Of a DNA stretch of 64,000 bases, positions 6,191 to 51,176 are shown in pieces. The stretch spans positions 1-64,000 of IMG/VR virus record IMGVR_UViG_3300017605_001488, one strand, 5' to 3'. The notes below the pieces were generated by a model, which saw nothing but the letters and a program-made list of their open reading frames with translations, ran no database searches and was not told the DNA's origin. The first letter of the stretch is position 1. The number at the start of each line of letters is the position of its first letter. The translations under genes were made by a program, and so were the position numbers. Source of the DNA: a virus.

Positions 6191-7753
6191 TCCCACGACG
6201 CGCATGCCGACCCCGCCGCTCTGACGACGCTGGTTATCGAACACGCGGCACCCTTCACGCGCGAACCACGACGCCATCAACCGGTCGCCGGTGTGGTCCT
6301 TCGGGTTGTAGGTCAGCATCTCCCGAATCCACGCATCGATTTCCTTGTGCACGCGCAGGCCGCCCTTGACGAGCGAGCCGCCCTCGTTCGGGATGATCCA
6401 CTTCCCGGATGCAATCTCGGCGGCGACGCCCTGCACGCCCCATTCGGGGTGAGCCTTGTTTCGACCGGTGGTGAACGGTCGACACGTCGCCATCGTCAGC
6501 TTCTCGGCGAATTGCAGGATGTACTGCTGCGCGGCGTTGTTCTCGACGATGAAGATGCCACCGAACCGGTCGTACACGTTCTCGATGGCGTCGACGATCT
6601 CCGGACCGGCCATCTTGGCGGTCTCGATGTTCAACACCTGACGGAGCCCATCCGGCCACAACAGCACCGTGAAGATGCACGTGAGGTCGGCGGCCTCGGT
6701 CTTTCGTGACGCGAGGTCGACGCCGTGGAAGATGGCGAACCCTTCGTGCAACCGGGACAGCGCCTCGATCGCGTTCCCGAGCTCGTCGCGGTCGGTGATA
6801 CCGGACTCGAGCTCACGGATTAGGTCGTAGTCCCGTCCGAGCTCGATGCCGCGTTCGATCCATTCCTTCTTGAATCGCGCATCCTCCTCGTCGCGCGACA
6901 TGCACAGAAGCTGACGCGCGAACTCGAGCGGACCGAGCTCGATGCGCTTCTCCTCGATGCGGTCCTTGGGCCATTGCCCCGGCCACAGCAGATCGCCCGA
7001 GACCTCATCAACGATGGGGAACCGGAAGCTCTTGTATCGCTTGTTCGCGGCGAGCCGATGCAGCGCGTCCTCGGGGTGCCACGCGTTGCCCGGTGCCCAC
7101 ACGCGGGCGTTCGCCGTCAATCGACCGACCAGCGTGGACTGGATCCACTGCCATAGGTCGCGCCGCCCCGAATCGCGATCGACGTTTTCGTAGTCGAGGA
7201 TGTCGTCGAGGATGAGCAGGTCGATACGTGCGCCGAGGATGTTGCCGTGCACGCCGCACGCCTGCACGGATGGGTCCTTCGCGAGGATGGTGCGCTCGAC
7301 GGTGATGGCGTTCGCCGTCCACGGCAACGATTGGTCGCGCGCCGGCTTGAGGTCGGGAAAGATGGCGTGCAGCTCCGCCGACTTCTCGATGTACTGCGCG
7401 ATGAGCCGAACGATCTTCTTCGCCTGCTCGTTGGTGTTCGACACCACCGCCACGCGGAGGTTCGGGTTTTTCCCGAGCTCGTACAACACCCGCCCGACGC
7501 TGATCTGCGTCGTCTTCCCCGACTCGATCGATGCCCACAACACGACGCGGTCGTGGTCGTTGAGGATGTCGTGCCACTGATTGTGGAATGGCGCCTGCTG
7601 GACCGGCCGCCCGGCCTCGTCGCGCAGCACCATCTGATTGAAGAAGCTCGGGTCGTTGCGCGCGACCGCGAGGTTGATGTGGTGCGCCCGGCTATACGCG
7701 GTTTGCGCGTTGACCTTGCAAGCGACGGCGGGATCGGCGAGTGCGACGGACAT
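6188..7753 (-). CDS. terL: Terminase large subunit
   Basis: 521 residues, a usual length for TerL, the ATP-driven packaging motor and headful or site-specific nuclease. A Walker A-like loop lies at about 73-82 (WASIESGKTT) and Walker B at 179-184 (LLILDD). The RNase H-like nuclease domain has its first acidic residue at D346 (HGVDLAS), a second at E404 (VENNAAQ) and a third near the C terminus (DRLMASWF). The stop overlaps element P1, which drives the next genes. The ATG start has a plausible upstream gap. Confidence 0.95.
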   Translation of the reverse strand: MSVALADPAVACKVNAQTAYSRAHHINLAVARNDPSFFNQMVLRDEAGRPVQQAPFHNQWHDILNDHDRVVLWASIESGKTTQISVGRVLYELGKNPNLRVAVVSNTNEQAKKIVRLIAQYIEKSAELHAIFPDLKPARDQSLPWTANAITVERTILAKDPSVQACGVHGNILGARIDLLILDDILDYENVDRDSGRRDLWQWIQSTLVGRLTANARVWAPGNAWHPEDALHRLAANKRYKSFRFPIVDEVSGDLLWPGQWPKDRIEEKRIELGPLEFARQLLCMSRDEEDARFKKEWIERGIELGRDYDLIRELESGITDRDELGNAIEALSRLHEGFAIFHGVDLASRKTEAADLTCIFTVLLWPDGLRQVLNIETAKMAGPEIVDAIENVYDRFGGIFIVENNAAQQYILQFAEKLTMATCRPFTTGRNKAHPEWGVQGVAAEIASGKWIIPNEGGSLVKGGLRVHKEIDAWIREMLTYNPKDHTGDRLMASWFAREGCRVFDNQRRQSGGVGMRVVG

Positions 7754-16686: not shown

Positions 16687-17445
16687 TCACCAGGGCTTGC
16701 GCGATGCCGTGTGCTCGTTGAAGTGCGCCGTGACGACGCGCCCCATCCCCTCGAACTCCTCGGTGAACGCGTAGATACCCTCGCTCGTCAGGATGGGGAT
16801 GGACACCTTCGACTCGATGTCGCGCCGAGCACACGGCGGCGGCAAGTAGATCAGCACCGATGCATGCGGCGGCGAGCTCCCCTCCTCGAACCCGTCGCCC
16901 ACATCGCGGTAGTATGCGATGCGCGACGCGGGAACACAGAACGGGAAATCGATGGGCGTGCGCCCGGTGCATTCGTTCTGCGCGACTTGCAGGATCTCCA
17001 GGCTGAACCCGACGAAGAACGCCGACGGCACCCGCAACGACTCCCACTCCGCGAGCAACTTCTGCCACCACCGTTTCTGCGACGACATCACGTCCTCGTG
17101 CACATGCCGGCACGGGACCCAATCGCCGCCCGGAGATTGCACGCACGACCACTCGCCCTTCGACGGCAGCGTGCGGTGCTCCTTTTTCACCGGACCGACG
17201 GTGATGCCTTGGTTGTCGCACTTGCCGCCGGGCGGGTTGAGGAACGTCCGCCCCGACCACGGCGTGAGGTACCCGTTGGTGGCCGCGGTGTGGAACGCCT
17301 CCGCGCGAACGATGTGCGCGTTGGCGCGTTCCGTCGTTGCCGGGTCGAGGTCGAAACCCCCGAGCACCGACCGCGCACGGTTGACCACGTCGGGCGGCGT
17401 GAAGTGCTCGGCGGACTCGCTGGAGTGGCGCACGTTGTCGGTCAT
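16687..17445 (-). CDS. Phage-type DNA N6-adenine methyltransferase (Dam, PF05869-like)
   Basis: 252 residues. It transfers methyl groups from S-adenosylmethionine to adenine in DNA. Visible features are FDLDPATTERANAH, typical of phage T1-like Dam enzymes, and the catalytic NPPG motif at 70-73 (FLNPPGG). A Cys/His-rich insert at 74-115 is longer than I expect for the family. Its likely role is protecting phage DNA from host restriction; the target site is unknown. Confidence 0.88.
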   Translation of the reverse strand: MTDNVRHSSESAEHFTPPDVVNRARSVLGGFDLDPATTERANAHIVRAEAFHTAATNGYLTPWSGRTFLNPPGGKCDNQGITVGPVKKEHRTLPSKGEWSCVQSPGGDWVPCRHVHEDVMSSQKRWWQKLLAEWESLRVPSAFFVGFSLEILQVAQNECTGRTPIDFPFCVPASRIAYYRDVGDGFEEGSSPPHASVLIYLPPPCARRDIESKVSIPILTSEGIYAFTEEFEGMGRVVTAHFNEHTASRKPW

Positions 17446-18560: not shown

Positions 18561-19190
18561 CTATCCCAGCGCCTCCATGTGGGCACCCTTGCGCGGGTTG
18601 GGTTCGTACTCGAGCTCGATGTTGCGGAACGTTTCGTCCAGCCACCGCGCCATCCGCGACGCGGTCGCCTGCAAGCCCGACCGCTGGGATAGACCGTTCC
18701 AATGTGCGCCGTCGATCTTCCACGTGTGTGCGAGCGTGTACGGCATCGCAGCAAGCTCGTGGACGTGCATGCCGGACAGCTCCGGCAGCATCAACCGGAA
18801 CATCGCCGTGAGCGCTTCGCGCCACTCGACACGGCGGCGGTCGCGCGCGAACAACGGCCACAGCTTCCGCTGCCGCGCGGTGCGAATGGTCGGCAGCATG
18901 TGCGTGCCGTGTTCCAACGCGACCCACAACGCGAACACCCACGCCTCGGCATACCACTCCCATCCGCCCTGCTCCACGTGCAGGCTATTCGACCGACGGG
19001 CGAACACGGCCTTGTACACGTACGGCTTCCCGAACGCGCGCATGTCCCGCGCCGCGTTCCCCGACACCAACAACACGTCGTCGCGCCCGGTGCGTGCATG
19101 CGCGTAGGTGCCGGCCGCCATCTCCACATCCTCCCGCATCGCGCGTGCGATGCCCTTGTGCTCGAGTTGCCAGGCGCGACTTCGCGTCAC
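18561..19190 (-). CDS. Hypothetical Trp-rich helical protein
   Basis: 209 residues from a GTG overlapping the upstream stop (GTGA); MREDVEMAAGTYAHA is an internal alternative. It has the aromatic segment GGWEWYAEAWVFALWVALEHG, then WREALTAMFRLML, loosely like the PxW-type group. It ends one base before the sigma-like gene. Unknown. Confidence 0.6.
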   Translation of the reverse strand: MTRSRAWQLEHKGIARAMREDVEMAAGTYAHARTGRDDVLLVSGNAARDMRAFGKPYVYKAVFARRSNSLHVEQGGWEWYAEAWVFALWVALEHGTHMLPTIRTARQRKLWPLFARDRRRVEWREALTAMFRLMLPELSGMHVHELAAMPYTLAHTWKIDGAHWNGLSQRSGLQATASRMARWLDETFRNIELEYEPNPRKGAHMEALG

Positions 19191-19843
19191 GGCTTGCCGG
19201 CTTCCTCGCCTTCGCCGGCGGCAACCTTGCGCGTGTACGATTCGAACTCCGCGACGGTGACGATCTCCGACGGATGAGCGTGCTCGCTGGTCACCGCGAC
19301 ATCGGTGCATTCGTCGCACAGCGGGATGCCCCCGAACACGTACGTGGACGGCACGTCGACGGCGTGGTCGCGCTCGCACCACTTGATGCGCTCCCGCTCG
19401 CGAGCGGCATCGTACGCGTCGCGGTCCACGTTGAAGATGCGCTGCATGCCGACCCACGGCACGAACCGCAGGCCGATGAGGTTCTGCACATCGAACCCGT
19501 ACTGCGGTCGCCCGTCGCGGTTGGTCAACATCGCCCACGGCGGGCGGTGCGCGCGCTTGCTGTTCAACGTGCACCCCGTCACCGTGCATAGGCCCATGAT
19601 GCCGCCAAACCGGCGCGTGGCCACGAACCGATCGAACGGTGGGAGGATGATCTCCTCGTCGATGTTGTCCTGCATCCACGCCTCGGCCCAATCGTATTCC
19701 GATCGGGTGAGCCCGACCGCCCGATGCAAGTACAACTCCCCGCGATGGGTCGTCGACCACACGCGGTTCTCGATGTCCTTGCCGAGCTCCCACATCGCGT
19801 AGAGCCACGGTTCGCGCAGCGACAGCACCTTGATGATGCCCAT
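19187..19843 (-). CDS. ASCH-domain protein
   Basis: 218 residues. The N-terminal third matches the ASCH/PUA-like pattern: VLSLREPWLYAMWELGKDIE, NRVWSTTHRGELYLHRA, then FGGIMGLCTVTGC and FVPWVG. ASCH domains bind RNA or modified nucleosides, and some are RNases or demodifying enzymes. A later Cys/His segment (WCERDHA, PLCDECTD) could hold zinc, which is unusual for the family. Coupled to the next gene by GTGA. Confidence 0.8.
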   Translation of the reverse strand: MGIIKVLSLREPWLYAMWELGKDIENRVWSTTHRGELYLHRAVGLTRSEYDWAEAWMQDNIDEEIILPPFDRFVATRRFGGIMGLCTVTGCTLNSKRAHRPPWAMLTNRDGRPQYGFDVQNLIGLRFVPWVGMQRIFNVDRDAYDAARERERIKWCERDHAVDVPSTYVFGGIPLCDECTDVAVTSEHAHPSEIVTVAEFESYTRKVAAGEGEEAGKP

Positions 19844-19854
19844 GCCGACCGTAC

Positions 19855-20229
19855 TTACGCGGTGCCGCGGTCAATCACGTCGACGCGATAGCCCGGGATC
19901 GCTACGCCGGGCGGGATGCGCAAGAGCTCTCCGAGCACCTTGATGGCGCGTGCCGGGTCGCACACGTCGCCGCACGTGAACACGTCCACGAACATCACGC
20001 CCGCTTCGGGGTACGTGTGAATGGACGCGTGCGACTCCGACAGCTCGACGAGGACGGTGAGCCCTTGCGGCTCGAACTCGCGCACGTGCGACGCGAGCAC
20101 CGTGGCACCGGCATGCCGACACGCCGCGACGAGCGACAGCTCGAGCGTCACCCGACTGTTCAACGTCTCGAACGGGACGCCGTGGAACTCGGCGAGGGCG
20201 TGTTTGCCGCGCGGGGGATGGTCGCTCAT
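19855..20229 (-). CDS. speD: S-adenosylmethionine decarboxylase proenzyme
   Basis: 124 residues, the normal length of the prokaryotic class-1b enzyme. It decarboxylates S-adenosylmethionine for spermidine synthesis. Self-cleavage should occur at E65|S66 (LSESHASIHTYPE), leaving a pyruvoyl on S66. H71 and C86 (VFTCGD) are the other processing/catalytic residues. All are intact, so the enzyme is probably active. The ATG overlaps the stop of the methyltransferase gene (ATGA), an unusual partnership. No spermidine synthase is visible. Confidence 0.93.
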   Translation of the reverse strand: MSDHPPRGKHALAEFHGVPFETLNSRVTLELSLVAACRHAGATVLASHVREFEPQGLTVLVELSESHASIHTYPEAGVMFVDVFTCGDVCDPARAIKVLGELLRIPPGVAIPGYRVDVIDRGTA

Positions 20230-21152
20230 GCCGGCCGCCGAAACACGATTGCGTACTCGTGCACCTTGGGTGCGATGCGGTGGCGGTTCTTGTCCGCGGC
20301 GAAGATGCGCGGCAACCCCGCGATGAGCCCGTCGACGATCCACGTGTCGTGCAGCTTCCAACCGGCACGCACCATCAGGGCGATGGTGTCGGCGTGGTAC
20401 GCGTAGAAGTCCCCGCCCCGTCGAAAGTCGTTCACGTTCGACACGAAGTACGCGCCCGGCTTGAACTTGGGCAACCACTCGCGCGCGACCGTTTCCATCC
20501 CCGCGAGGAAGTCCTGGTACGTGCCCAGCTTGCCCAACTGCTCGGGCTCGTCACCGTAGTACTCGATGTCGTAGTACGGCGGCGACGTGAACCCGAAGTC
20601 TCCACGCCCGTCGGCGATCCACGACGGGTCCCGCGAGTCCCCGTGCACGATGTCGATGCGGGTCTTGCCGTCGTCGATCTTGGCCTTCACCGCCGCGATG
20701 TACCGGAAGAACTCCGTCGACAAGTCCATGCCGACGTAGTGCAACCCGCGCAGCTTCGCGACCTGCATTTGCACGCCCTGCCCCATGAACGGATCGAGGT
20801 ACGTGTCCCCGGGCTTGGCGTAGTACTTGATGAAGAAGTCGACGAGCTCGGCGGGCATGATGGACGCGTTGACGCGTTGGCCGCCCTTCTGCTTCGTCAT
20901 CACACCGCCCACGATGCCCATGCGCTTCCGTTCTTTGGCGGTGGCCTTGCCCTCGGTGGTCTTGGTGTTCGCGACGAGCGTGTCACCGTCGGCGGAGATG
21001 GACCGGCCGCGCTCCTCCTGCTGGTACATGAACATCGACTTGGACAACGCGCCGCGCGACAACTTCAGCACCGACATCGGCATGAACCCGAACTTGGCGG
21101 TGAGGTCGTCGCGGTTCGTGGCCGACGCGCGCACGCGGTCCGCGAGCGTCAC
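20226..21152 (-). CDS. DNA methyltransferase (TSPPYYD type)
   Basis: 308 residues from a GTG overlapping the ParB-like gene. The AdoMet-binding motif is YLDPFMGQG (about 118-126) and the catalytic motif is TSPPYYD (189-195), as in N4-cytosine/N6-adenine amino-methyltransferases. The 100-residue N-terminal part contains a Lys/Thr-rich segment and may help DNA recognition. No restriction partner is visible, so this is probably an orphan or anti-restriction enzyme. Confidence 0.88.
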   Translation of the reverse strand: MTLADRVRASATNRDDLTAKFGFMPMSVLKLSRGALSKSMFMYQQEERGRSISADGDTLVANTKTTEGKATAKERKRMGIVGGVMTKQKGGQRVNASIMPAELVDFFIKYYAKPGDTYLDPFMGQGVQMQVAKLRGLHYVGMDLSTEFFRYIAAVKAKIDDGKTRIDIVHGDSRDPSWIADGRGDFGFTSPPYYDIEYYGDEPEQLGKLGTYQDFLAGMETVAREWLPKFKPGAYFVSNVNDFRRGGDFYAYHADTIALMVRAGWKLHDTWIVDGLIAGLPRIFAADKNRHRIAPKVHEYAIVFRRPA

Positions 21153-21856
21153 GGCGTCACCACCTTCGCGGCGGTTTCCTGACGCAACCACGCACGCAAC
21201 ACGTCGTCGAGCATCGGTGTCGTGCCCGCTTGTTGCGTCGCGCGGTACCGGGTCACGAACTCGTCGTACACGGCCTTGGTGACGCGACCGGCGTAGTCGC
21301 CGAACCGGAACGCGACGAACCCGTCGTCGGTGTCGTCCGCCGCACCGAAGTCCGCCGGACCATCCCCCGGGGTGGCGTCGCTGGCCGCGGCGAGAATGGC
21401 GTCGACCTCCTCCTGCGGGATGCCCGTGCCCGTGACCACGTCGACGTTGTGGTCGAGCAGCTTCGCCACCTCGACCGCGAACGCGGCGTCGTCCCATTCG
21501 GCGATCTCGCCGAGCTTGTTGTCCGCGAGTGCGAGCGCGTGCGCCTCGTCTTCGGTGATGTCGAGGAACCGCACCGGCACCATCCCGGGCGACGGCTGCC
21601 CGGGGAACACCCCGTTGAGCAGCAACACCGCCTTGCGGCGGGTGTGGCCCTTGATGATCTCGCGGTTCGCGAGCCGCGCCACGATCGGCGCACCGAACCC
21701 AAACCGCCCGATGGACGCGGCGATCTCGGGCACGGCCTTGTCGTTCACGCGCGGGTTGTCGGCCCACGGGACGAGCGAGTCGAGCGCCACCCATTCGGCG
21801 GCGGGCGGAACAACAACGGGCGCGGGTGCGCCTTCCTTCGAACGTTTCGGTGGCAT
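21149..21856 (-). CDS. ParB-like N-terminal domain protein
   Basis: 235 residues from MPPKRSKEGAPAPVVV, with a GGGAG ribosome site. The ParB/Srx-fold core spans about 25-110: ADNPRVNDKAVPEIAASI, FGFGAPIVARLANREIIKGH, TRRKAVLLL, then ALALADNKLGE. In phages this domain often sits beside a DNA methyltransferase, as here. ParB-like folds bind CTP or act as nucleases; which applies is unknown. Confidence 0.88.
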   Translation of the reverse strand: MPPKRSKEGAPAPVVVPPAAEWVALDSLVPWADNPRVNDKAVPEIAASIGRFGFGAPIVARLANREIIKGHTRRKAVLLLNGVFPGQPSPGMVPVRFLDITEDEAHALALADNKLGEIAEWDDAAFAVEVAKLLDHNVDVVTGTGIPQEEVDAILAAASDATPGDGPADFGAADDTDDGFVAFRFGDYAGRVTKAVYDEFVTRYRATQQAGTTPMLDDVLRAWLRQETAAKVVTP

Positions 21857-32024: not shown

Positions 32025-33047
32025 TTAGGACGTGGGTGGCCCGTGCACCGGGCACGACGCCCGTGCTGCAATCGCTTCGATCGACATCGTGTCATCGATG
32101 CACGTGCACATCGGCGCGTTGACGGCGGCGAGCTTCTGTGAGCTGCGCGCGGTCGGCGTCTCCTTGTCGGTGTCGGGCGGCTTGGAGTCGAGCTCGGCAC
32201 GGTCGACGTAGTACGGATCGTTCGGTGCGGTCTCCGGTTGCGTCGGTGCGGGTTCGTGCGGCACGGGGATGACCAGGCTGTCGACCCACGCGTACACGGC
32301 CTCGCGCGGACCGTTGAACACGTCGTGGTCGACGTTCACGCGCCCACCATCGATGCCCGGCACGTGCAGCGGCTTCTCGTTACCCGGTGCTTGGTCACCC
32401 GACCGTTGGTGCCATGCCCACGTCTTCCACGGGTGCGGGACATAGATGGTCGGGTTCGCCACGTACGCCGCGAGACACAACGGGCGACGTGCGAGCTCGA
32501 TGGCCTTCTCGATCGGGATGTTGCCCGCGTGCTCGTTGAAGAACGGGCCACCGGTGTACTGCACGGTGAGCCTGCCGGTGCGTGCTTCACACGCGGCATA
32601 GAACGCGAGGTGCCAATCCACGAACGGGCCACCGTTCGCGATGCGCCGCGCCTCCTCCGAATCGAGCATGTAGAACGCGAACGGCCCACCGACCGCATCG
32701 CACACGTCGATGAAGTGGTTAGCCTCCGCGACGGCGTCGTCCTTCGACGGGTCCGGGTGGTCGAAGTGGTACGCACACACGAGCAACGGACGAAGGCCGT
32801 GCGCGATGCGCAACGCATCGGTCGATCGGATGCCACGCACGTGCGGTGCGAAGTCCGGGTCGGCACCACCGTTGCCGTCGGTGGCCTTGACGATGACGCC
32901 GAGGATGGGTTCCCCGTCGTCCATCTTCGCCAACGCCACGGCGTTCCACTCGATGCGCGTGTCGGGCTGGCACGAGCTGATGTCGATCATGTGCGACACG
33001 ACCTTGCGGTCGGTCGGTGTCGGTTCCGTGGTGCGGTACGGGTTCAC
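32025..33047 (-). CDS. GH25 family lysozyme (endolysin)
   Basis: 340 residues from a GTG (GTGA overlap). GH25 muramidases cut the glycan strand of peptidoglycan. Visible landmarks: MIDISSCQ (D22), VIVKATDG, CAYHFDHPDP, YMLDSEE (catalytic D129/E131), VDWHLAFY, WAWHQRSGDQ and VNVDHDVFNG. After the catalytic domain (about 20-255) comes a Pro/Thr-rich linker and a short C-terminal tail with CTC and CPVHG, a possible metal knuckle instead of a known cell-wall-binding domain. No signal peptide, so a holin is needed. Confidence 0.9.
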   Translation of the reverse strand: MNPYRTTEPTPTDRKVVSHMIDISSCQPDTRIEWNAVALAKMDDGEPILGVIVKATDGNGGADPDFAPHVRGIRSTDALRIAHGLRPLLVCAYHFDHPDPSKDDAVAEANHFIDVCDAVGGPFAFYMLDSEEARRIANGGPFVDWHLAFYAACEARTGRLTVQYTGGPFFNEHAGNIPIEKAIELARRPLCLAAYVANPTIYVPHPWKTWAWHQRSGDQAPGNEKPLHVPGIDGGRVNVDHDVFNGPREAVYAWVDSLVIPVPHEPAPTQPETAPNDPYYVDRAELDSKPPDTDKETPTARSSQKLAAVNAPMCTCIDDTMSIEAIAARASCPVHGPPTS

Positions 33048-33421
33048 GACGCGACCGCCTCAGCCTCACGACGTTTCGCCTCGAGCTCCTTGCGCTTGCG
33101 CTCGACACACGGCGGGCAGCCCTTCCCGGTGACGCACGTGGCGCATCCGAATGCGTTGCAGAAGATGCACCGCCCCACCTCGGTCACCAGCTGCCGGCAC
33201 ATCGCGCACTCGTACGGCCAGTGATGCAAACCCACGAACACGCGCGGGTTCGCTGCCTTGAGCGCTTCCGCCACACGCGTCGCCCACAAGCTCGCCGGAC
33301 GACCGAGGCCCGCGGACACGAGCTCGTCGACCGTGATGCTGGCCGCCGCCGCCGACTCGATCAGCAGCGTTCGCGTTTCGTACGACCGGGTGCGCAGGAT
33401 CTCGTGCTTGGTCTCGTGCAT
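33044..33421 (-). CDS. Cysteine-rich zinc-binding protein
   Basis: 125 residues from MHETKHEILRTRSYETR. The C-terminal third has CAMC, CIFC, CATC and CPPC half-sites (about 70-105), enough for two zinc ions in a RING/B-box or double-ribbon arrangement, followed by a basic tail. The N terminus is helical. Function unknown. Confidence 0.6.
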   Translation of the reverse strand: MHETKHEILRTRSYETRTLLIESAAAASITVDELVSAGLGRPASLWATRVAEALKAANPRVFVGLHHWPYECAMCRQLVTEVGRCIFCNAFGCATCVTGKGCPPCVERKRKELEAKRREAEAVAS

Positions 33422-40594: not shown

Positions 40595-43282
40595 TTACGC
40601 GGCTTCCTTGTATTTTTCGAGCGAGCCCCACGCACGCCCGACCTCAATGTCGACCTTGAGCTCCACGTCACCGGACGGGTACGACTCCATGATGCGCTTG
40701 ACCTGATACGCGACCTCGGGCACGGCGTCCTCGCGCACCTCGAGCAGCAGCGAGTCGTGCACCGGCAAGCACAACATCGCCGGCACGGCGTCCTCGCGTA
40801 GCCAATCCACCACGTCGACGATCGACCGCACGCAGTAGTCCGATGCCGTCCCCTGGATCGGGGTGTTCACGGCACCGTTCTCGGCGGTGATGCGCTGCCC
40901 GTCGTCCTCGTCCGCGATGCGATGCAACGACCGGCGGCGCGCACGTTCGCCGTCCCACATCGTCCACGACTCGCCGGTGCGTCGCGATTCGGACAACCGC
41001 TCCTTGCACCACGCGGCCAGCCGCACGAACTTCCCTAGGATGGCGTCCATCACGCGTTGAGCCTCGGCAACGGTGCACCCGAGGTTCGCGGCCAACGTGC
41101 GCGCCGTCATGCCGTACAGCACGCCAAAGTTCACGGCCTTCGCCTGCGCACGGTGCTCCTTACCGACCTGCTCCGCGGTGATGTGCCACAGCATCGGCGC
41201 GACCATCTGCGCGGTGCGCTTGTGAAAGTCGACGCCCGACCTGAAAATCTCCTTCATCACCGGGTCGTTCGACAACATCGCCGCGATGCGCAACTCCAGC
41301 TGCGAATAGTCCGCCGACAGCAGCAAGTACCCCGGACGCGCACAGAAGCAGTCGCGCGCCATCTTGCCCTCGGGTCCCTTGTACGTGGGCGATTCCGGGT
41401 CATCGACGCGGGGGATGTTCTGTAGGTTAGGGTCCTTGCACGACGTGCGACCGGACCGCGCGCCGTCGAGCAGAATCGACGGGTGGATGCGCCCGTCTGG
41501 GCGCACGTGCGGCAACATCCCGATCGCGTACGTCGACCGCATCTTGGTGATTCGCCGGTACTCGAGCAACGCCGGGATGAGCTCGTGCTCGCCCTCCAGC
41601 TCCTCGAGCGTGTCCTTGTCCGTGCTCTCGTTGTCGTTGTCGGTGATTCGGATGACACGCAACCCGAGGTCCTTGAACAGGATCTTGCGCAGCTGCGGTG
41701 CCGAGTTCCAGTTCACGTTCGGGAAGTACGAGTCGAGGCGGCGCTTCGCGTCGAGCTCCTTCCCCTCCAAGTGCTTGTCGAACATGATGATGGCACCGCG
41801 GTCGGTCGGGATTCCCCACCGTTCGACCTGCGCGATGGCCGTGCTCGCACCGGCCACGATGCGATCCCACACCCGCTGCAACGGCGGCACCGCCGCGAGC
41901 GCCGGCTCGAACACCTCGCACAACGCCGTCGTCGCGACCGCGTCGCGCGCGTTGTATCGATACACCACGTCGCGGTTGGTGTGGTCCAGCACCGCGTACA
42001 CCCACGAGTCGGAGTCGTGCGCCCAATTCTTGTTCTTCGACGTGCCGTGCGACTTCTCACGCACGACGGGCTCGAGCTCCGCGTCGATACCCAACGTCGA
42101 CAACGGCGGCGGCGGCACCGGTGGCACGGGCGGCTTGCGCGTCTTGCTGTTGGCCAGCTTCGCCGGGTACTCGGCCAACGCCTTCTCGTACCGCTTCTCG
42201 GCGGCCATGATGCCGCGCACCTTCTTCACGGCCTCGACGGAGTACCGATCCTTTTCTTCCTTCATGCCGCCCATCCCGACGAGCTCGCACATGCGCGCGA
42301 GGTCGGCGGCAGCCTCGGGGTCGAGCAGCTTGCGCCACAAGCGCGTGTCGCCATCGAGACCACGCACGCGGGCATCCCACTCGAAGTCCGCCGAGTTCTC
42401 GTCGTACTTCACGTTCTGCCCACGCTTGCGCGCGCCAACGTCGCGCAGGTACTCCAGCATGATGTCGACGGCTTGCGGGTCGGCAAACGCCTCGCCACCC
42501 CACAGGAATGCATCGCGCTCGCCCTGTGGACAGAACGAGATGCACACGATGCGGAACGACGGATCGTACATGAGCCCGGCGGTTTCCACGTCGAACGACG
42601 ACCACGGGAACGAACGCAGGTACTTGACCGCGAGGCGCGCGTCGTCGGCGTTCTCGACGACGTGCACGACCCCGTCCCATGGTGGCGTCGACACGTTCGC
42701 TTTGAGCGCCCACGCCATGTCATCCTCGAACCACTGGCGCACGAATCGGTTTCGTAGCGCCGCCGACGGATGGATGACCAGGAACACCGGCACCGGTTGG
42801 CGCGTGCGCGCGAGGAATGAATACCCGCGCCGGGTCGAGAACGGCGCCACCGCCCGACCCAACACGGAATACGCCGCCCATCCACCCACGCACACGATGC
42901 GTGTGGGCTCCGCCTCGATGGCGGTCTTGGTCAGGTACCCGCGGCACGCCTCGATGTGCGGATCGTCGGGACCATCACGCCCGGGAAAGCACCGCACCGC
43001 GTTGTCGTACGCAACGGGACCCTTCCAATGCTTCGCGATCGTCTCGCGTAGCAACTTCCCCGACTTGCCGATGAACGGTCGACCGATGGCGTCTTCGTTT
43101 CGGCCGGGCGCTTCCCCCACGACGAGCAAACCACCCGCCTCACCCTCGGCGTTGATGCACACCGTCTTTGGCCGCCCAATCTCCGGGAGGTTGCACCGAC
43201 GGCATGCGTGGTCGACGTTGAGGGGTTCGGCGAGTTCCAACGCCACGGCGGGTGGCGACTCGTACAGGGAAAGGCGGCGCAC
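40595..43282 (-). CDS. Uracil-DNA glycosylase / family A DNA polymerase fusion
   Basis: 895 residues. Residues 1-190 form a family-4-type UDG: four cluster Cys (C27, C30, C98, C113), GEAPGRNEDAIGRPFIG (56-72) and HPSAALRN (171-178). A 3'-5' exonuclease domain follows (SFDVETAG with D231/E233; YNARDA). The polymerase has motif A LLSADYSQLELR (D658), motif B RAQAKAVNFGVLYG (about 711) and motif C LPVHDSLLLEV (H842, D843). All key residues are present, so glycosylase, proofreading and polymerisation should all work. GTG start. Confidence 0.93.
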   Translation of the reverse strand: MRRLSLYESPPAVALELAEPLNVDHACRRCNLPEIGRPKTVCINAEGEAGGLLVVGEAPGRNEDAIGRPFIGKSGKLLRETIAKHWKGPVAYDNAVRCFPGRDGPDDPHIEACRGYLTKTAIEAEPTRIVCVGGWAAYSVLGRAVAPFSTRRGYSFLARTRQPVPVFLVIHPSAALRNRFVRQWFEDDMAWALKANVSTPPWDGVVHVVENADDARLAVKYLRSFPWSSFDVETAGLMYDPSFRIVCISFCPQGERDAFLWGGEAFADPQAVDIMLEYLRDVGARKRGQNVKYDENSADFEWDARVRGLDGDTRLWRKLLDPEAAADLARMCELVGMGGMKEEKDRYSVEAVKKVRGIMAAEKRYEKALAEYPAKLANSKTRKPPVPPVPPPPLSTLGIDAELEPVVREKSHGTSKNKNWAHDSDSWVYAVLDHTNRDVVYRYNARDAVATTALCEVFEPALAAVPPLQRVWDRIVAGASTAIAQVERWGIPTDRGAIIMFDKHLEGKELDAKRRLDSYFPNVNWNSAPQLRKILFKDLGLRVIRITDNDNESTDKDTLEELEGEHELIPALLEYRRITKMRSTYAIGMLPHVRPDGRIHPSILLDGARSGRTSCKDPNLQNIPRVDDPESPTYKGPEGKMARDCFCARPGYLLLSADYSQLELRIAAMLSNDPVMKEIFRSGVDFHKRTAQMVAPMLWHITAEQVGKEHRAQAKAVNFGVLYGMTARTLAANLGCTVAEAQRVMDAILGKFVRLAAWCKERLSESRRTGESWTMWDGERARRRSLHRIADEDDGQRITAENGAVNTPIQGTASDYCVRSIVDVVDWLREDAVPAMLCLPVHDSLLLEVREDAVPEVAYQVKRIMESYPSGDVELKVDIEVGRAWGSLEKYKEAA

Positions 43283-49849: not shown

Positions 49850-50569
49850 CTACGCGCCATCGATCAGCCGCATCAATCCCACGGCGAGGTCGGCCCCTTT
49901 GCCGCCGCCCGCCTTGCGCAACGCCCGCTTCACCCGTGCGAGGTCTGCTCGTGTCCCGAACGTGAGTTCGAGCACGAACGGCTTGATGGGTGCATCGGAG
50001 TCGTCGGGCACCGCGCCCATCTCGGGCGTGATGTCCAACGACGCGTCGACGGTGGTCTTGACGAGGTCGGCGATCTCGCTCGGGGAAAACCCGGTCAAGC
50101 TCAGGTCCTCGATCGACCACCCATCCGCGTGCATGTCCGCCAACGTCGACGCCACCGCCGACAGGTCGAGCTCGCCGCGTAGTCGGTTCATTCCGATTTG
50201 GGCGATGCGTGCCTGTTCGGCATCCATGCCCACGACGACGCACGGCAACTCCGTCATCCCGTTGGCCTCGGCCGCACGCACGCGGTGCCATCCGTCGACG
50301 ATGACGAACTTGCTGGCGAGCCGCATCGTCGCCTCGACGGCGGCACGGAACTCCTCGATGGTGCACGACCCCTGCTCGGGGAGCTCGATCGTCTCCTCGC
50401 CCTCGTCGATGGGTCGGACGAGCACCGGTTGCACGAACCCGATGCGCAACATCGCCGCTTGCAGCGTGTCGCGCTTCTCCTGGTCCATGCGATTCGGGTT
50501 CTCGGGCGGGTCCGCCAGCCGCGAGATCGGAATGCTGATGATTCGGGCGCTTTCGTAGCTATCGAACAT
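49850..50569 (-). CDS. ParB-like partition/nuclease-domain protein
   Basis: 239 residues from MFDSYESARIISIPIS. The ParB N-domain pattern is clear: ISIPISRLADPPENPNRMD, MLRIGFVQPVLVRP, FVIVDGWHRVRAAEANGMTE, LPCVVVGMD and RIAQIGMNRLRGE. A C-terminal helical part follows. This is the second ParB-like gene in the window. It may regulate transcription or bind a phage centromere-like site; none was seen. Confidence 0.8.
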   Translation of the reverse strand: MFDSYESARIISIPISRLADPPENPNRMDQEKRDTLQAAMLRIGFVQPVLVRPIDEGEETIELPEQGSCTIEEFRAAVEATMRLASKFVIVDGWHRVRAAEANGMTELPCVVVGMDAEQARIAQIGMNRLRGELDLSAVASTLADMHADGWSIEDLSLTGFSPSEIADLVKTTVDASLDITPEMGAVPDDSDAPIKPFVLELTFGTRADLARVKRALRKAGGGKGADLAVGLMRLIDGA

Positions 50570-50579
50570 GGCGGTGATA

Positions 50580-51176
50580 CTAGCCCCTTCTCGCCCGGGC
50601 GAGATCCCAAAGCGTCCCGTCCTGCACCACACGTGATCGGAGCCGTGCCGTCATCGCGTGCACCGCCGGCGGTGCGATGCCGAGCAACGTGGCGACCTCG
50701 CGCGGCGTCGTCTCCTCGAGCAGCACCGGCACGACGGGAATCAACCCCTCGACGCGGGCGACATCGATCAACCGTGCGCGCACACGTTCGCGCCATTGCT
50801 TCTCCTCGACCGCCGCGAATTGCCCCGGACCCTGGTCGACGAGGTGCACCGACCGCTGCTCCGTTTCGTCGCACCCGTCATCGCCTGCGATGCCGGTACG
50901 GTGCAACCCTCGGTACGACTTTTCGGGGCGGTGCTTGCCGCCGCTGACGGGCGCGGACATCGACCAGAGGAACCGCCGCACGGCCAACACCACCGCCGTC
51001 CAGAAGTAGCCTTCGGGCTCGTCACCCGCGCCGGCCACGTACGTGTGTCGCGCCTCGGCGCACGCGACGTGTCCGACCTGGCGCAGCTCCGCCGGCTCCG
51101 CCCACCAACACCGTCGGGAGTAGCGGCTCGTGACCTTGCGCACGATCTCGATTTCGGCTTCTACGCTAATCGGCAT
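50580..51176 (-). CDS. Sigma-70-like factor (divergent)
   Basis: 198 residues. An N-terminal region-2-like helical domain reads ELRQVGHVACAEARHTYV, then GYFWTAVVLAVRRFLW, recalling DLxQxGxxALxxAxxxF and the AYxxxxIR helix. The C-terminal segment TPREVATLLGIAPPAVHAMT fits a region-4 helix-turn-helix. The middle is acidic and variable. Assignment is remote and needs a profile search. If correct, the phage encodes two sigma factors. Confidence 0.55.
   Translation of the reverse strand: MPISVEAEIEIVRKVTSRYSRRCWWAEPAELRQVGHVACAEARHTYVAGAGDEPEGYFWTAVVLAVRRFLWSMSAPVSGGKHRPEKSYRGLHRTGIAGDDGCDETEQRSVHLVDQGPGQFAAVEEKQWRERVRARLIDVARVEGLIPVVPVLLEETTPREVATLLGIAPPAVHAMTARLRSRVVQDGTLWDLARARRG

Follow-up and report, generated by a model that had tools for sequence, protein, structure and literature searches.

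A recurrent phage gene module pairing S-adenosylmethionine decarboxylase with a ParB-associated DNA methyltransferase homologue: a candidate pathway for aminopropylation of DNA

The analyzed window, a stretch of 64,000 nucleotides, is part of a 96,875-base virus record (IMGVR_UViG_3300017605_001488) in which nearly all genes (79 of the 82 obtained with a simple codon model) lie on the minus strand. Transcribed in this direction are, in order, a gene for a ParB-like protein (21149..21856), a gene for a 308-aa homologue of DNA amino-methyltransferases (20226..21152), and speD (19855..20229), which encodes the 124-aa proenzyme of a class 1b S-adenosylmethionine (AdoMet) decarboxylase. The stop of the ParB-like gene and the start of the methyltransferase gene share a GTGA (21149..21152), and the methyltransferase stop and the speD start share an ATGA (20226..20229), so that the overlaps by which the original prediction had joined the three genes are indeed present on the minus strand. 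The same prediction had remarked that no spermidine synthase was visible, and that a complete polyamine pathway elsewhere in the genome would speak against a special coupling. This observation holds for the entire 96,875-base record, in which neither the spermidine synthase (SpeE) profile PF01564 nor the ornithine/arginine decarboxylase profile PF02784 found a match.

Only 11 nt separate speD from the gene behind it (19187-19843, minus strand; phrog_3193), which appears ASCH-like by eye and had no match in a Pfam search; in Croceibacter phage P2559S, an ASCH gene is located directly before the methyltransferase gene. The minus strand of the window also encodes a second, Dam-like DNA methyltransferase (16687-17445; phrog_111), a DNA polymerase A whose N-terminal part contains a domain of the uracil-DNA glycosylase superfamily (40595-43282), and a second ParB-like protein (49850-50632), for which a weak profile match was obtained, along with a ParB_N match in a batch scan including this protein.

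The ParB-like protein encoded upstream of the methyltransferase matches phage ParB families in the PHROGs collection (7e-32; phrog_620, 6.7e-32). Its match to the Pfam ParB_N profile is weak (E 0.044, 14.3 bits) and lies under the 26.3-bit cut-off, that is, below the score expected of plasmid-type ParB partition proteins. Both this protein and the methyltransferase homologue match phrog_498, a family in which a single protein contains both parts, and the ParB-like part is likewise fused to the methyltransferase in relatives, for example, those of Pseudomonas phage ZRG1 and of the viral locus L002. The association of ParB with a methyltransferase is a known phage combination, which in the window phage is split into two genes.

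The methyltransferase homologue belongs to PF01555 (63 bits versus a cut-off of 26.7) and keeps motif IV as TSPPYY, in agreement with the (D/N/S)PP(Y/F) pattern. The predicted model of the enzyme (mean pLDDT 75) adopts the class I Rossmann methyltransferase fold, and its best fold matches are class I methyltransferase structures. Assignment to the beta class was considered and rejected, given that the motif order in the window enzyme is X-I-IV and the PDB matches are permuted. The TSPPY motif hints at cytosine N4 rather than adenine N6 as the predicted target.

SpeD was recognized with the PF02675 profile (98 bits versus a cut-off of 25). In the alignment with the Thermotoga maritima AdoMet decarboxylase (1tlu/1vr7), the catalytic residues S63, H68 and C83 are kept as S66, H71 and C86, respectively, and Ser66 (codon 20032..20034, minus strand) is the predicted pyruvoyl-forming serine. 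Inactivity of SpeD, envisaged earlier as a way in which the coupling argument could fail, is not borne out at the level of these residues, and the same Ser/His/Cys set was found in 48 of 48 methyltransferase-linked SpeDs. The prolines P54 and P74, either of which may be the one that separates AdoMet decarboxylases from the arginine decarboxylases (SpeDA), are both present in the window protein; in 47 of the 48 linked SpeDs, the exception being L254, there is a proline within an HT[WFY]PE motif. The P2559S SpeD, whose gene overlaps a methyltransferase gene of the module type, restores spermidine in an Escherichia coli delta-speD strain and hence is a true AdoMet decarboxylase (PMC9992855). With this member of the same module characterized, an identity of the window SpeD as SpeDA or ornithine decarboxylase (SpeDC) is not favoured; by family and catalytic residues, it is a class 1b AdoMet decarboxylase, and its predicted reaction is the decarboxylation of AdoMet. 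Unusual SpeD homologues were also seen, one containing the catalytic motif TTSHLSIH three times in tandem (L174, 4411-4926), which is either real or an assembly artefact, and one in Bacillus phage vB_BcoS-136 (L169, 2752-3825) annotated at 357 aa, approximately 3 times the usual length.

Profile scans uncovered dozens of diverse phages in which such a methyltransferase gene is followed by speD, among them the cultured phages ZRG1 and P2559S. A single-sequence scan of 2.9 million viral contigs yielded only one close relative of the window SpeD (53% identity), from L002, where speD is located directly behind the fused ParB-methyltransferase gene. The closest relative of the window methyltransferase (66%), from L003, is followed by a second methyltransferase gene and then by a divergent speD with an ATGA overlap. 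Across 47 non-redundant pairs, the methyltransferase and speD genes overlap in 35 and are at most 20 nt apart in 7 more. Scans with the methyltransferase profile alone, which returned 78 and then 80 loci, identified speD behind the methyltransferase in 6 of 9 non-redundant loci of the window-type clade, and directly 3' in 71 of the best 80 loci of a second ParB-methyltransferase clade, a proportion that describes this clade and not ParB-methyltransferases at large, the profile having been built from linked enzymes. Records with ordinary ParB-methyltransferases carried any speD in only 1 of about 40 cases, and there it was non-adjacent. Because the same gene order recurs in many divergent phages, the pairing exceeds chance, and the special coupling between SpeD and a DNA methyltransferase that had been proposed from a single phage is real and extends far beyond it. 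The module is often located just before the terminase genes.

The surroundings of these loci contain additional genes and speD groups. Between the two diverged methyltransferase copies of L003 lies an ORF (6922-7453) resembling, by eye, a LAGLIDADG endonuclease, and in ZRG1, a gene for the 'nucleotide modification associated' protein Nmad5 (32587-33186; L167, 7978-8234) is found a few genes behind the module and TerL. In L163, L166 and L174, a large HTH-methyltransferase gene is followed by a gene for a different SpeD (TTSHxSIHTWPLR), which lies before a structural gene common to the lineage. We considered counting this arrangement as a third kind of module and dropped it: the motif I arginine discussed below is kept in these enzymes, and L173, a sister, encodes the same TTSH-type SpeD next to that structural gene but lacks the HTH-methyltransferase. 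The group counts against the rule described next and looks like a single lineage. Another group of speD genes (L029 and L280-L329, about 40 loci) lies behind a gene for the same protein of approximately 880 aa, possibly a primase-helicase, and a methyltransferase of the module kind is absent from these loci.

Comparison of the methyltransferases with and without an adjacent speD revealed a difference in motif I, at the position occupied in the window enzyme by Gln128 (hereinafter kappa; codon 20769..20771, minus strand; DPFMGQGVQ). Unlinked enzymes have Lys or Arg at this position (DPFGGEQTKG, DPFAGGSVRG, DPFAGHNSRM and, in members of the window clade without speD, DPFMGQGVRM), whereas Gln, Phe, Tyr or Ser is found in speD-linked enzymes (DPFMGQGVQM, FAGDTVFG, AGESVYG, GGEPVSA). 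At 75% non-redundancy, a basic residue occupies kappa in 0 of 49 linked versus 66 of 72 unlinked enzymes (Fisher p 1e-27, a statistic that ignores relatedness, which inflates plain counts). In a blind scan of every alignment column, kappa, although noticed beforehand in the same alignments, ranks first (MCC 0.90). The columns ranked 2-4, which correspond to Met99, Tyr118 and Gln130 of the window enzyme, all lie in motifs X and I, that is, in the AdoMet site and not in the target-base motif IV; the second best, Met99 in motif X (codon 20856..20858, minus strand), is Phe in most unlinked and Leu or Met in most linked enzymes.

In a tree built without the motif I columns, kappa changes together with speD on separate branches: R to Q in the window clade, R to Y in L254, K to S in L002, and a change to F in the FAGDTVFG clade. 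Nested within the latter clade, L429 and L431 have Lys again and no speD, which amounts to a reversal. A test on independent pairs gave 3-5 concordant and 0 opposite cases on well-supported branches (p 0.06-0.25), too few for significance. The six exceptions are all of one kind, with the pocket changed and no phage speD, and none of the 49 non-redundant linked enzymes combines speD with a basic kappa. If the changed enzymes use decarboxylated AdoMet (dcAdoMet), these exceptions are allowed, because many hosts could supply this compound.

What the kappa residue might do is suggested by its location. In the predicted model of the window enzyme, it occupies position 2 of the helix that follows the loop of motif I, and by analogy with class I structures, this site would adjoin the methionine moiety of the cofactor. 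In the unlinked relatives, the basic residue that is lost from the linked enzymes probably holds the carboxylate of AdoMet. For METTL16, a salt bridge between an arginine and the carboxylate of AdoMet has been proposed (PMC12467241). Furthermore, the use of dcSAM and SAM is switched between spermidine synthase and putrescine N-methyltransferase by a small number of substitutions in the pocket, of which two (D103I and V106T) fall in motif I, and the threonine of V106T was modelled as binding the carboxyl group of SAM (PMC3725402). As a counterpoint, the linked enzymes have not jointly gained an acidic residue equivalent to Asp103 of spermidine synthase. Losing the basic residue while gaining an AdoMet decarboxylase is the pattern expected of a switch from AdoMet to dcAdoMet, and such a switch, though inferred, is well supported.

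We therefore consider it probable that the module is a DNA modification system, in which SpeD makes dcAdoMet and the methyltransferase homologue uses it on DNA. In polyamine synthesis, dcAdoMet is the donor of aminopropyl groups. In the proposed scheme, SpeD would convert AdoMet to dcAdoMet, which the ParB-guided methyltransferase homologue, freed of its basic carboxylate-holding residue, would accept as cofactor, transferring the 3-aminopropyl group to the exocyclic amine of a DNA base. An aminopropyl product is the most likely because decarboxylation sets up the 3-aminopropyl group for transfer, as in spermidine synthase. The resulting base would be N-linked and positively charged, and aminopropyl groups might protect the DNA from nucleases and partly neutralize its charge for packaging. 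We lean, with slightly less confidence than for a modification module as such, toward the specific reading that the enzyme is a phage DNA aminopropyltransferase which takes dcAdoMet from the product of the next gene and places cationic 3-aminopropyl groups on cytosine N4, the more likely target, or on adenine N6. Among the three explanations offered originally, a polyamine-type DNA modification comes closest, although the aminopropyl group would come straight from the dcAdoMet that SpeD makes, without prior synthesis of a polyamine.

In cyanophages, speD is often found next to unrelated genes, spermidine can be restored by phage SpeDs (PMC9992855), and SpeE is present in many hosts, all of which would suit an ordinary auxiliary polyamine gene. 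Such a gene would work together with the SpeE of the host to raise spermidine, be it for replication or for packaging, and the methyltransferase next to it would be incidental. This reading predicts neither fixed adjacency to one methyltransferase type nor a change in the AdoMet pocket, and we regard it as unlikely. No spermidine synthase (PF01564) was detected in any of 39 phage records, namely, that of the window phage, 14 more, of which 11 carry the methyltransferase-speD pair, and a further 24; the genomes of ZRG1 and P2559S, both complete, are among the 39. Moreover, two isolates that carry the module in a prophage, Dysgonomonas sp. PF1-14 and Spirosoma spitsbergense, have no SpeD besides the prophage SpeD encoded behind the methyltransferase. 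In these hosts, a spermidine synthase is either missing or under the PF01564 cut-off, and NspC is present. NspC is the decarboxylase of an alternative spermidine route. With SpeE missing or below the cut-off and the NspC route in place, the phage SpeD cannot serve ordinary spermidine synthesis in these two hosts, where phage-made dcAdoMet would have no ordinary acceptor enzyme. Polyamine supply for DNA packing, as suggested initially, is thus disfavoured.

Depletion of AdoMet, by which SpeD would starve AdoMet-dependent host defences once the phage DNA is methylated, was also among the initial suggestions; SpeD would then act like the T3 SAMase. SpeD does consume AdoMet, and AdoMet-degrading phage enzymes exist (PMC7877911). 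However, the co-translated methyltransferase would be starved too, and depletion explains neither the pairing with the phage's own methyltransferase nor the loss of the basic residue and the restriction of speD to enzymes that lack it, which makes this possibility very unlikely. Comparably low is the probability that the linked SpeDs are SpeDC or SpeDA enzymes whose products, putrescine or agmatine, feed polyamine synthesis or a DNA modification of the putrescinyl type. Activities of this kind have been demonstrated for several SpeD homologues of phages, unaccompanied by SpeE (PMC9992855, PMC10407285). However, the SpeD that P2559S encodes in this module is a true AdoMet decarboxylase, and the change in the methyltransferase pocket would be left unexplained. 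The least probable of these routes leads to the same aminopropyl base and needs both genes as well, with the methyltransferase placing the 3-amino-3-carboxypropyl group of AdoMet on DNA and the SpeD homologue decarboxylating this group on the base. Transfers of 3-amino-3-carboxypropyl by methyltransferase folds are known, e.g., TYW2. Nevertheless, the loss of the basic residue better fits a cofactor devoid of the carboxylate, and in E. coli the P2559S enzyme takes free AdoMet as its substrate (PMC9992855).

Transfer of aminopropyl groups from dcAdoMet to DNA, if confirmed, would be a novel base modification that adds a novel chemical class to the bases of DNA, and this polyamine cofactor would be employed on DNA for the first time. 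It would imply that a common methyltransferase can become an alkyl-amine transferase through a simple pocket change and acquisition of a cofactor-making partner, and would explain the many speD-bearing phages without spermidine synthase. A non-basic residue in motif I together with an adjacent speD would then be the sequence signature of such phages, and the enzyme could possibly be used for amine labelling of DNA. In the open-access literature, we found no prior report of DNA aminopropylation, of this gene pair, or of SpeD in connection with ParB, DNA modification or hypermodification; the proposed modification may be new.

The module resembles several known systems and differs from each. ParB-methyltransferase fusions of the PHROG 498 type, such as gp36 of Enterococcus phage phiFL3A and gp77 of Listeria phage B054, similarly combine a ParB-like part with a class I DNA amino-methyltransferase carrying an S/CPPY motif, and are often encoded near terminase genes; unlike the window module, they have Lys or Arg in motif I and no speD adjacent or elsewhere in the record. 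The linked SpeDs share family and catalytic residues with phage class 1b SpeDs, including those of cyanophages and those of a 2023 PNAS survey (PMC9992855), the text of which does not mention methyltransferases, but they are tied to a DNA methyltransferase gene and not to polyamine or cyanophage core genes. With spermidine synthase and putrescine N-methyltransferase, the window enzyme shares the class I fold, and in those enzymes the choice between dcSAM and SAM depends on residues lining the coenzyme pocket, some of them in motif I (PMC3725402). The proposed acceptor is, however, a DNA base, and the window methyltransferase is not matched by PF01564. Cationic hypermodifications of phage DNA include the putrescinylthymine of phiW-14 and aminoethoxymethyl-uracil. 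Like these, the proposed module would place a positively charged group on phage DNA by means of phage enzymes; but whereas both known modifications start from hydroxymethyluracil, the present one would arise through a cofactor swap in an amino-methyltransferase.
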